From: Pseudomonadales bacterium | Lineage (GTDB): Bacteria > Pseudomonadota > Gammaproteobacteria > Pseudomonadales > Pseudohongiellaceae | DNA: 45,890 nt | Assembly (NCBI GenBank): GCA_023256835.1 | Contig: JALREE010000292.1 | Span: 1 to 45,890, forward strand | Direction: 5' to 3' | Part shown: one piece after another, positions 3,385-7,528 of the stretch | Numbering within the stretch: the stretch's first letter is position 1 | How the letters are laid out: each line of letters starts with the position of its first letter | Position numbers and translations under genes: made by a program | The notes under the pieces: model-generated | What the model was told of the DNA's origin: nothing | The model's database searches: none | Seen by the model: only the letters and a program-made list of their open reading frames with translations

Positions 3385-4875
3385 TCACTTGCGCGCCGCG
3401 GGCATGCGCACTGTCAGCAGCACGTTCTCGGCGCGCACCGGCACGCCGTCGCGCATGGCCGGGCGAAATTGCAGCAGTTCGGTGAGCTTGCGCAGCTTCA
3501 CCCGATTGGGCGTGTTGTCAGGGGTGACGGCCAGGTATTCCAGATTGCCCACCTGGCCGTTGCTGCGCACATTGAAGCGCAGTCTGGCCTCCAGCGTGCC
3601 CTCCGGGCCGCCCGCGTCGCCCTGCAGGCCGGGGATCAAGGTCGAGATCAGATTGTAGTCTTCCAGGGTGTAGGACACGGGCTCGGCCACGTGCTGGCAG
3701 GCGGGAAGGGCTGCGTCGACGCTGGCATGGAAGACGGTGAGCGGCAGCATGACCGGGCATCGAGTGAGTGCCGCGATCCGTTCTGTCGCCACGCCAGCCT
3801 CCGCCAGCAGCGCCAGGGCGTCCTGATAGGACATCATCGCCGCCCCGGCTGACGAGGAGCCGCGCTGCATTCCGGCGAAACTGCCGGGGCGGTCCTCGAA
3901 CTGGGTGCGCATCAGCACCGAATCCCCCATGGCCATCAAGGCCATGGCTTCGGCCTCGCGATTGCCGCTGCCGGCATAGATGTCGCGGATGCGCTCGAGC
4001 TCCTCGTAACTGGCACCCATATTGGCCTTGAAGGAGCGCTCGATGACCGTGCTGGCGCGCGAGCCATAGAGCGCCTCGACTTCCGCCACGCCCAGTCCTC
4101 CTGCGGCACTGCCTGCGCCGAGCGCTCCGCGATTGCGCACGCCTTCGGTCTCCAGCATCAGCGCCTGCGAGGTGTCGTCGGTCAGCATGATCGCCAGGGC
4201 GATGTACAGCTCGGCCACGGACTTGTCATACAGATAGGGCACCAGCGCCTCGCTGTCTGCGCCATGCTGTTCCTCGGCAAGCTCGGCGGCCTTTTCTTCC
4301 ATGAGGCTCAGGCGGACCAGGTGGTGGGCTTCGCGCACGTGCTCGTCCTTTTCCAGGGCCTGCAGATGCCAGGCGCCGATCTTCTTGAGCCCGGCCAGAC
4401 GGGCCTCGACAGGCAGCGTGTCGTCCCGTTCGTAGAGCCAGCTCAGATACTGCAGGGTGTCATCGATGCGTCCCCACTGGCCCTGGCGGGACTGCAGCTC
4501 GAGCAAGGTCTCGATGACGGGAATCTGTTCGGGAGAGTACAGGCCATGGGTGATGCGCTGAATCTGCAGCTGTTGGTCCAGCAGGCTGACGGCGTCGTCG
4601 AAGCGTTCGTTCTCGATGTGCACGCCGATCAGGTCATCGAGCGGCTCCAGCAGGCGCTGGTCGAAGGGGCCATGGGCGCTCTGCAGGGCGCTGAGTGCCT
4701 CTTCGTAGCGGGCGATGCGGGCCTCCATCTCGAGGGCGCGCTGCATGGCCGGGGACAGATCGTCATCCTGCGCCTGACTCGTCATGCCAGGCAGCAGCAA
4801 GGCAATGGCGGCGGCCGTCAGCGCCTTGCGCAGACGTGCAGATCGATGGACAGCCTGCGGGGGCAGTGCGTGCAT
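3385..4875 (-). CDS. Secreted TPR-like protein with TonB-like C-terminal domain
   Basis: Start taken at MHALPPQAVHRSARLRKALTAAAIALLLPGMTSQAQ (signal peptide). Helical repeats, then EARLRFNVRSNGQVGNLEYLAV...LLQFRPAMRDGVPVRAENVLLTVRM, resembling a TonB C-terminal fold. Confidence 0.7.
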   Translation of the reverse strand: MHALPPQAVHRSARLRKALTAAAIALLLPGMTSQAQDDDLSPAMQRALEMEARIARYEEALSALQSAHGPFDQRLLEPLDDLIGVHIENERFDDAVSLLDQQLQIQRITHGLYSPEQIPVIETLLELQSRQGQWGRIDDTLQYLSWLYERDDTLPVEARLAGLKKIGAWHLQALEKDEHVREAHHLVRLSLMEEKAAELAEEQHGADSEALVPYLYDKSVAELYIALAIMLTDDTSQALMLETEGVRNRGALGAGSAAGGLGVAEVEALYGSRASTVIERSFKANMGASYEELERIRDIYAGSGNREAEAMALMAMGDSVLMRTQFEDRPGSFAGMQRGSSSAGAAMMSYQDALALLAEAGVATERIAALTRCPVMLPLTVFHASVDAALPACQHVAEPVSYTLEDYNLISTLIPGLQGDAGGPEGTLEARLRFNVRSNGQVGNLEYLAVTPDNTPNRVKLRKLTELLQFRPAMRDGVPVRAENVLLTVRMPAARK

Positions 4876-4900
4876 GCCGCGATTCGCCTTGATCGAGTGG

Positions 4901-4929
4901 TTGACACGACCAAGTAGATCACATAGATT
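4901..4929 (+). promoter_or_regulatory. Strong sigma70-type promoter candidate
   Basis: TTGACA (4901-4906), 17-bp spacer, TAGATT (4924-4929). Confidence 0.65.
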
Positions 4930-4979
4930 CGCGCGCCTCAAACCCGGCGTGCACTTTTGCACCAATGCGGATCCGCCCC

Positions 4980-5111
4980 ATGAACACGACTCCACACCGC
5001 CTCCTCGCCCTTGCCATGGCAGCTGCCATGTCAGCCGCGCGTGCAGCCGCGGCGCGTCGTCGTGCGCGCGCGCGTGACGCCCATTCAGCGCAGATGTCGG
5101 AGACCTTCTAA
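4980..5111 (+). CDS. 43-aa Arg/Ala-rich small ORF; candidate leader peptide
   Basis: MNTTPHRLLALAMAAAMSAARAAAARRRARARDAHSAQMSETF*. Lies between the promoter candidate and the intrinsic terminator. Six Arg codons within 12 codons. Confidence 0.5.
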   Translation: MNTTPHRLLALAMAAAMSAARAAAARRRARARDAHSAQMSETF

Positions 5112-5134
5112 GCACCCTTGCAGTACCCCAACAG

Positions 5135-5173
5135 AACCTCCAGGCGTCGCGCGACTCCGGGAGGTTTTTTTTT
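5135..5173 (+). terminator. Intrinsic terminator / possible attenuator upstream of the argD-like gene
   Basis: AACCTCC (5135-5141) pairs with GGAGGTT (5160-5166); inner GTCGCGCGAC self-complementary; run of nine T (5165-5173). Confidence 0.75.
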
Positions 5174-5197
5174 GCCTTGAAGAAAGCCGGAGGGCTT

Positions 5198-6415
5198 ATG
5201 AACACGATCGAGATTGAGGACAGCCTCGCGCTGTCTGTCTGCATGAAACAGCCAGTGGCCTTCGAGCGCGGACTGGGCGCCCGCGTCTGGGACGAGCAGG
5301 GCCGCGCCTTCCTGGACTTCACCGCTGGCTGGGGCGTGACCTCGCTGGGGCATTCCCATCCGGTGCTGGTGGCGGCCATCGCCGAGCAGGCCGGCAAGCT
5401 GATGCAGAACCCCAATTCCGGTTTCACCTATTCCCCGGTGCGCGCGAAGCTGCTGCAGCAACTGCAGCAGGTGCTGCCTGCCGGCCTGGTGCGGGTCTTC
5501 TTCGCCAACAGTGGCGCGGAGGCCAACGATGCCGCCGTGAAGCTGGCGCGCAAGGTGACCGGGCGCAGCAAGCTGCTGGTGGCGTCCAATTCCTTCCACG
5601 GGCGTACCCTCGCCACCCTGTCACTGTCCGGCGGACCTGAGAACGGGGCGCGCTTCTCGCCCCAGGTGCCCGGTCATCAGTTCCTGCCCTTCGGTGATGC
5701 CGACGCGCTGTGTGCCGCCATGGACGAGCAGGTGGCGGCCGTGTTGCTGGAGCCGGTGCAGGGCGAAGGCGGCGTGCGAGTCCCGGCGCCGGACTATCTG
5801 CCAACGGTGGCGGCCCTGTGCCGGGAGCACGGCGCCTTGCTGATCGCTGACGAAGTGCAGACAGGCTTCTGCCGCACGGGCAGCTTCTTCGCGGTCGATG
5901 CCGCAGGCGTGCAGCCCGATATCCTCACCATGGGCAAGGGCATCGCCGGGGGCTTTCCCCTGGCGGCGTTCGCCGTCACCGCCCGGGTGGCAGCAGGGGT
6001 GGCGAAGGGCGATCACGGCGGAACCTACTGCGGCAACCCTCTGGCCTGCGCGGCCGCCAGTGCCGTGGTGGACTATCTGGTGTCCCACGATGTGGCCGGG
6101 CGGGTGGCGCGGCTGGGGCTGCGTGCGCTGCAGGATCTGCAGCAACTGGCAGACAAGTATCCGCAGCTGCTGCGCGAGGTGCGCGGCAAGGGCCTGTTGC
6201 TGGGCTTGCAGCTGCACAGCGATGCCCAGGTGAGCGCCCTGACGGAGGCGGCGCTGGCGCGCGGCCTGCTGGTGACGCCCACCCGCAATGCCGTGCTGCG
6301 CCTGATTCCGAGCCTGCTGCTGGAGCCGGCGGAGTGGGAGGAGGGACTGGGTATTCTGCGCAGTGCCTGTGGCGACGTGCTGGCGCGGCCCGGCACTGCC
6401 GTTCGGGCAGCCTGA
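5198..6415 (+). CDS. argD: Acetylornithine/succinylornithine aminotransferase family (ArgD-like, class III PLP aminotransferase)
   Basis: PVAFERGLGARVWDEQGRAFLDFTAGWGVTSLGHSHP; FFANSGAEANDAAVKLAR; FHGRTLATLS; EPVQGEGGV; LLIADEVQTGFCRTG; MGKGIAGGFPLAAF. SD ggaggg 4 bp before ATG. Symbol tentative within the family. Confidence 0.85.
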   Translation: MNTIEIEDSLALSVCMKQPVAFERGLGARVWDEQGRAFLDFTAGWGVTSLGHSHPVLVAAIAEQAGKLMQNPNSGFTYSPVRAKLLQQLQQVLPAGLVRVFFANSGAEANDAAVKLARKVTGRSKLLVASNSFHGRTLATLSLSGGPENGARFSPQVPGHQFLPFGDADALCAAMDEQVAAVLLEPVQGEGGVRVPAPDYLPTVAALCREHGALLIADEVQTGFCRTGSFFAVDAAGVQPDILTMGKGIAGGFPLAAFAVTARVAAGVAKGDHGGTYCGNPLACAAASAVVDYLVSHDVAGRVARLGLRALQDLQQLADKYPQLLREVRGKGLLLGLQLHSDAQVSALTEAALARGLLVTPTRNAVLRLIPSLLLEPAEWEEGLGILRSACGDVLARPGTAVRAA

Positions 6416-6511
6416 CCCTGTCACCCGGGAGACTGGCGGCAGTCTGTCACGGGATTGAGTAAGATGGCCGGCGCGCGGACTTCAGTCGCGCGCTCACAAG
6501 GAGAGTCACCC

Positions 6512-7528
6512 ATGCAGTCCACGAAGATCGTGCTGGCCCGGCGTCCGGTCGGCGAACCCGAGGATGCCTGTTTCGGCATCGTCCATGAAGACATTCCCGC
6601 ACTCGGTGAGGGGCAGATCCTGATCAAGGTCCTCTGGCTGTCGCTGGACCCGTACATGCGCGGCCGCATGAACGATGCCAAGTCCTATGCCAAGCCGCTG
6701 GAGATTGGCGACATCATGCCGGGCGAGACGGCCGGGGTGGTGGTGCAGTCGCGCTCCAGTCGCTATGCGGTGGGCGACCATGTCACGATTCACAAGGGCT
6801 GGCGCAACCTCATCTTAGCCGATGACACTGATCCGATACTGATGAAGGTGGATCTTGCCAATGGCACGCTCTCGGCCCATCTGGGAGTGGTCGGCATGCC
6901 AGGACGCACCGCGTATTTCGGCCTGCTGGAGCTTGGCCGCCCGCAGGCCGGCGAAACCTTGGTGGTGGCGGCGGCCTCCGGCGCCGTCGGCTCGGTGGTG
7001 GGCCAGATCGCGAAACTCAAGGGTCTGCGTGTGGTGGGCATCGCCGGCGGCGAGCAGAAGTGCCGTCATGTGCGTGAGGAGCTGGGTTTCGACGAGTGCC
7101 TGGACTATCGCGAGCCGCAGCTGGCCGAACGTCTGGCAGCGGCCTGTCCGCGGGGCATCGACATCTATTTCGAGAACGTGGGCGGGGATGTCACCCGTGC
7201 CGTGGGGCCACTGCTCAATCCCGGCGCGCGCGTGCCCATCTGCGGCTATGTCTCCCACTACAACGACAAGGACATCAGTCAGTCGGTGCTGCCGGCCGAT
7301 ATCCTGAAGTCGCTGCCAGTGGTGCCCGAGCACCGCTTCTTCCTGGTCAGCGAGTGGTTTGCGCGCTGGCCCGAGGCCACGCGGCAGCTGGGGCAATGGG
7401 TCAGGGAAGGCCATATCCAGTACCGGGAGACGGTGGGCGAGGGGCTCGAGAAGGCGCCGGAGTATTTCCGTGGCCTGCTGCGCGGGCGCAATCTTGGCAA
7501 GCAGTTGGTGAAGGTGGCGGAGGCCTAG
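6512..7528 (+). CDS. NADP-dependent MDR-family oxidoreductase (CurA/YncB-like)
   Basis: LWLSLDPYMRGRMNDAKSYAKPLEIGDIMPG; AASGAVGSVVGQIAKLKGLRVVGIAGGEQKC; DIYFENVGGDV; GRNLGKQLVKV. Confidence 0.9.
   Translation: MQSTKIVLARRPVGEPEDACFGIVHEDIPALGEGQILIKVLWLSLDPYMRGRMNDAKSYAKPLEIGDIMPGETAGVVVQSRSSRYAVGDHVTIHKGWRNLILADDTDPILMKVDLANGTLSAHLGVVGMPGRTAYFGLLELGRPQAGETLVVAAASGAVGSVVGQIAKLKGLRVVGIAGGEQKCRHVREELGFDECLDYREPQLAERLAAACPRGIDIYFENVGGDVTRAVGPLLNPGARVPICGYVSHYNDKDISQSVLPADILKSLPVVPEHRFFLVSEWFARWPEATRQLGQWVREGHIQYRETVGEGLEKAPEYFRGLLRGRNLGKQLVKVAEA

Follow-up and report, generated by a model that had tools for sequence, protein, structure and literature searches.

The control of amino acid biosynthesis through a translated leader peptide has long been known for amino acids other than arginine, and ArgR repression is the usual description of how gammaproteobacteria such as E. 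coli control arginine synthesis. The his, trp, phe, thr, leu and ilv attenuators of proteobacteria combine a promoter, a short open reading frame (ORF) with codons for the amino acid of the pathway, a mutually exclusive pair of antiterminator and intrinsic terminator, and a downstream biosynthetic gene. The leader of an argD-like gene found in the 45,890-nucleotide stretch of Pseudohongiellaceae DNA analyzed here (the window) resembles them in each of these respects; its codons, however, are those for arginine. His, thr and phe genes have been described as attenuator-controlled and arginine genes as controlled by T-boxes only (PMC1262725), and a survey of attenuators reports none for arginine biosynthesis (PMC2965389). 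A text search of the literature, which mostly did not extend to subscription journals and whose silence is hence no proof of absence, returned no leader-peptide attenuator of an arginine biosynthetic gene, and the only arginine-sensing leaders that it yielded were those of speF (PMC6386406) and rbfL (PMC13009471).

In Salmonella, consecutive Arg codons in orf34 upstream of speF sense low arginine through ribosome pausing (PMC6386406). Like the argD leader, orf34 is a gammaproteobacterial leader ORF with Arg codons; unlike it, orf34 serves an ornithine decarboxylase gene, acts via Rho, access to the ribosome-binding site and RNase G, possesses a conserved HIRRT domain, and lacks an intrinsic terminator (PMC6386406). 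Membership of the argD leader in the orf34 type (DUF2618) was rejected, as it encodes an Ala-rich peptide built around an AARR core and its gene is argD-like, and neither HIRRT nor ornithine decarboxylase is involved. The rbfL leader peptide of Staphylococcus aureus also senses arginine limitation with its Arg codons but, unlike the argD leader, it relies on AGA/AGG, which are rare codons, prevents the translation of a biofilm regulator from being initiated, responds with the opposite sign, and operates no terminator switch (PMC13009471). The arginine T-boxes of Firmicutes share with the argD leader the control of arginine genes at the RNA level via the charging of tRNA-Arg (PMC1262725), but they bind the tRNA directly and have no leader peptide. 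An Rfam scan of the window, T-box included, gave no match at the gathering threshold, and the argD leader was therefore not assigned to the T-boxes.

Architecture of the argD leader

All elements of the leader lie on the forward strand. A sigma70-type promoter (TTGACA-N17-TAGATT) was found by a promoter scan at positions 4901-4929, just as the earlier note had read it, and is the sole promoter-like match in the region 4400-6700, where 0.3 matches would be expected; most relatives carry a similar site (TTGACN-N17/18-TANANT-like), mostly 30-66 nt upstream of the leader ATG. It is followed by the 43-codon leader ORF (MNTTPHRLLALAMAAAMSAARAAAARRRARARDAHSAQMSETF; positions 4980-5111), which starts with an ATG at 4980, ends with a TAA stop codon at 5109-5111, encodes an Arg/Ala-rich peptide, and has orthologues in relatives. 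Its clustered Arg codons, likewise part of the original description, are codons 21, 26, 27, 28, 30 and 32. The presumed regulatory codons form the core AAARRRARAR (5046-5075), with RRR at 5055-5063, and the comparison of this Arg run among relatives that had been proposed as a check came out in its favor: an RR or RxR core is retained in nearly all leaders.

An intrinsic terminator, also noticed earlier, occupies positions 5134-5173 and consists of a hairpin (5134-5167) and a U tract of nine T (5165-5173), behind which the ATG of the argD-like gene (5198) stands after 24 nt. The hairpin folds with -21.3 kcal/mol (z -2.1), is more stable than most shuffles, and is nearly invariant, with 94% pairing in 11 species of the genus; a simple terminator scan of the DNA did not list this nine-T terminator. 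The entire leader has an ordinary stability (z -0.9), and its minimum-energy fold already includes a different helix, 5088-5102/5138-5152.

This helix is located directly 5' of the leader stop codon and is the predicted antiterminator, an assignment that draws on pairing, covariation and duplex energy. Its 5' strand (GCGCaGATGTCGGAG ... TTCT; 5088-5109) overlaps the end of the leader ORF, and its 3' strand (5133-5152) uses the same bases as the 5' arm and loop of the terminator, so that the two structures are mutually exclusive. In the genus alignment, 89.6% of the cells of the helix are paired, the covariation score of the whole antiterminator structure is equaled by 2 of 500 shuffles and exceeds that of all slid versions, and the duplex in the window has an energy of -23.3 kcal/mol (p 0.004 versus shuffles). 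The earlier note had proposed another partner for the terminator, the helix 5071-5081/5143-5153. Its 11-bp complementarity does exist in this genome, but it is not conserved in the genus alignment (65% of cells paired versus 64% in shuffles, 134/500), and it was mistaken for the antiterminator: the conserved partner of the terminator 5' arm, 5088-5102, lies further downstream. The envisaged comparison of the helices thus upheld the terminator and revealed a covarying alternative to it, but not the one originally drawn.

In related genera, both antiterminator strands differ in sequence while their complementarity is retained, as exemplified by the replaced strand pairs CATCCGGAG/CTCCGGATG (L018), GGGATAcCTGGA/TCCAGcTGTCCC (L022) and GGAGAGCTGTGGTTTTA/AAAACCTCTAAGTGTCTCC (leaders preceding a GNAT gene, the GNAT group). 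The mean energy of cognate duplexes is -19.6 kcal/mol versus -16.3 kcal/mol for non-cognate combinations. Against shuffled spacers, roughly one leader in two is significant by itself, and outside this genus many fail to exceed the shuffles; the case for the antiterminator is best in this genus and in the GNAT group, and weaker elsewhere. The leader stop codon follows closely behind the helix in most leaders. In the group of L045, L047 and L017, a gap of 32 nt separates the end of the antiterminator strand from that of the stop codon, rather a long way for the strand to be covered by a ribosome at the stop.

The influence of a ribosome on this switch was modeled for 34 leaders with a simple partition function that takes the ribosome footprint into account. 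An initial model had yielded zero sequestration at the stop codon because all upstream RNA had been cut off, and it was replaced by this fairer one, which gives a smaller contrast. The mean sequestration of the terminator arm amounts to 0.57 with the ribosome stalled at the Arg codons, 0.40 with the ribosome at the stop codon, and 0.41 when it is stalled and the spacer is shuffled; in 19 of the 34 leaders, at most 10% of the shuffles reach an equally high sequestration. The modeled effect hence points in the expected direction on average, with a modest contrast. A conserved protector (1:2) hairpin, which would maintain termination in an untranslated leader, could not be established.

Distribution among relatives and the genes downstream

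Orthologues of the argD-like protein occur throughout the genus and family (51-92% identity), with matching contigs that include Pseudohongiella and LSUCC0112, and the leader is found upstream of argD in every readable orthologue. The common layout comprises the promoter, an Ala/Arg-rich ORF with the core AAARRRARA or AAARRAARA, its stop codon, and a terminator of the AAACCTCC...GGAGGTTTTTTTT type; in one case (L020), the contig ends inside the leader and the terminator can still be seen. The recurrence of promoter, ORF, Arg codons and terminator in dozens of relatives shows that their arrangement in the window is not due to chance. Two seemingly identical copies of leader plus argD (L047, L048) are present on two contigs of one assembly (G068 C6 and C14), and reflect either a duplication or an assembly artefact.

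A covariance model trained on 19 leaders was run against 137 genomes of the family including Pseudohongiella, and its matches at E < 2e-6 were set against those of a protein search in these genomes. A leader match was obtained in 57 of the 58 genomes possessing an argD orthologue, and the remaining one (G010) has a run of N, an assembly gap, in the middle of the leader. In thirteen further family genomes, the leader is present but a complete argD orthologue is not. In most of them, a GNAT gene directly follows the leader and argD has been deleted or is present as a remnant only; the exceptions are G154, which is cut by a contig end, G149, in which the GNAT gene has decayed, and G025, which has lost the argD orthologue and in which leader frame and terminator have both decayed. 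When argD stands second behind a GNAT gene (about 250-265 codons), the leader precedes GNAT, and this constant place at the start of the operon, irrespective of the gene that follows, further backs the earlier view of the leader as a control element of argD. In the loci L199-L209, the GNAT-argD unit either lacks argD or keeps just remnants of it, the leader persists before GNAT, and the same genes for a CurA-like oxidoreductase and an SDR protein follow. When 392 genomes of the order were scanned, one further real case emerged in another family (L186/L083), again in front of an argD orthologue. Inspection of the other matches outside the family, save for three weak ones, showed unrelated terminators or MFS leaders, and the inspected weak matches inside the family (E > 2e-6) turned out to be different terminators or leaders upstream of MFS genes. 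No such leader was seen in the upstream regions of argF, nor upstream of the deltaproteobacterial orthologues of about 50% identity. Comparative sequence analysis has thus confirmed the argD leader as a real element that is conserved well beyond this genome, in a family of marine and freshwater bacteria.

The gene behind the leader (5198-6415) encodes a protein of 405 amino acids, assigned by profile matches and orthologues to the class-III aminotransferases. It matches PF00202 and scores 370.8 bits with NF002325 (cut-off 372) and 369.6 bits with TIGR00707 (cut-off 410), and is nearest to the acetylornithine transaminases, just below their curated cut-offs. Among the NCBIfam models, the GNAT protein matches CG3035-type N-acetylglutamate synthase best, at a score well under the cut-off; it passes Pfam PF24553. 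The steps of N-acetylglutamate synthase and ArgD both belong to the acetyl cycle of arginine synthesis, and the argD-like gene would, by its family assignment, serve arginine biosynthesis. Other ArgD proteins pass the curated cut-offs in all three relatives tested, and a classical ArgA scores above the cut-off in 33 of the 34 genomes screened for it; the argD-like enzyme may consequently not be the main ArgD, and the role of the operon may be supplementary or specialized. Hexameric ArgR (PF01316), found in E. coli by the same search, was found in none of the 36 family genomes, including the assembly of the window, which is 77% complete, and membership of the leader in a regulon of hexameric ArgR was therefore rejected.

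More distant matches of the argD-like protein (L058-L089; about 50% identity) derive mostly from Desulfobacterota-type MAGs and have no leader, a distribution that may point to a horizontal transfer of the gene. Downstream of argD, positions 6512-7525 encode a CurA-like NADPH-dependent oxidoreductase (NF058644, just below the cut-off), whose gene adjoins argD or GNAT in several family genomes.

Proposed mechanism and competing explanations

Very probably, the leader is a transcription attenuator that works through the ribosome and senses arginine via charged tRNA-Arg. RNA polymerase would start from the promoter at 4901-4929, with a ribosome trailing on the leader ORF. When Arg-tRNA is ample, the ribosome would get to the stop codon (5109-5111) and mask the RNA just upstream; with the antiterminator strand masked, the terminator (5134-5173) would form and transcription would end before argD. 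When Arg-tRNA is scarce, the ribosome would stall at the Arg codons around 5055-5075 and leave 5088-5109 free to pair with 5133-5152, which would use up the 5' arm of the terminator and allow transcription into argD. Translation of the leader ORF, arginine as the signal, the direction of the response, and co-transcription of the later genes are what we infer from this arrangement. The central proposal of the earlier note, an Arg-codon leader peptide that switches a terminator before an argD-like gene, is strongly supported at the sequence level by the conserved short ORF with its clustered Arg codons, the intrinsic terminator in front of the first gene, and the mutually exclusive antiterminator helix.

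The nature of the signal deserves scrutiny. Ala residues outnumber Arg residues in most leaders, and the Ala codons beside the Arg codons could be read as a signal too. An attenuator that answers to alanine supply, or to a general slowing of translation (e.g., by an inhibitor) for which the Arg/Ala run is merely a slow stretch, would profit from this fact and from the presence, in the same bacteria, of other conserved leader-terminator units ahead of MFS transporter genes, since these indicate that non-nutritional leader control may exist there. We nevertheless regard such a cue as unlikely. RR is found in 19 of 21 additional leaders and is retained in L201, L207 and L208 although their Ala run is gone, which favors arginine over alanine as the amino acid being sensed; moreover, the genes under control resemble those for ArgD and N-acetylglutamate synthase and have no link to alanine or drugs.

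It is less likely still, and in our view very improbable, that a protein or small molecule governs the terminator by acting on a conserved RNA in which the leader ORF is incidental. In its favor, 22 of 34 untranslated leaders already prefer the antiterminator in the model, so that translation is not obviously required for read-through. Against this stand the absence of an Rfam match and of a conserved aptamer-like core, the swapping of the helix sequence across genera in which the Arg codons remain, the proximity of the stop codon to the helix in most leaders, and a codon-phase bias: close leader pairs differ at 84, 85 and 156 sites in codon positions 1, 2 and 3 (325 in total), an excess at the third position that we take as supportive only, since the pairs are interdependent and constraints act on the RNA itself as well. 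The strong nine-T terminator ahead of argD could also close the gene of a small RNA or of a functional small Arg-rich protein, with argD expressed from elsewhere, and a small basic peptide might well have a role of its own; yet only 24 nt separate the U tract from the ATG, the leader is tied to the argD operon, the peptide is poorly conserved outside its Arg core, and a covarying alternative helix would be purposeless. We thus give this explanation the least credence of all.

Taken as an arginine attenuator, the leader would probably represent a family-wide Arg-codon device by which bacteria that lack hexameric ArgR govern an operon for arginine biosynthesis (an N-acetylglutamate-synthase-like GNAT together with ArgD), and would add arginine to the repertoire of classical attenuation. 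If this is true, attenuation by a peptide leader can take over arginine control in a lineage apparently devoid of hexameric ArgR, and dozens of natural variants, including operons lacking argD, allow the helix and codon requirements to be read.

As a separate observation, further loci in family genomes (L149-L153, L165, L157) carry another conserved leader ORF, which ends with ...GHQ(L/F)C(S/T)RV(A/V)xNWETCLE, is followed by a terminator (AAAGACCTCTAAG...CTTAGAGGTCTTTTTTTT), and stands shortly upstream of an MFS transporter gene (PF07690); judged by its sequence, it looks like a separate leader-peptide attenuator. In another family of the same order (L190, L192), a conserved leader ORF ending with ...(G/A)(S/A)FYDPGKSVG or similar and a terminator (AAAACCCCGAAGCGCCC...CCTTCGGGGTTTTTTTTT) likewise precede an MFS transporter gene.
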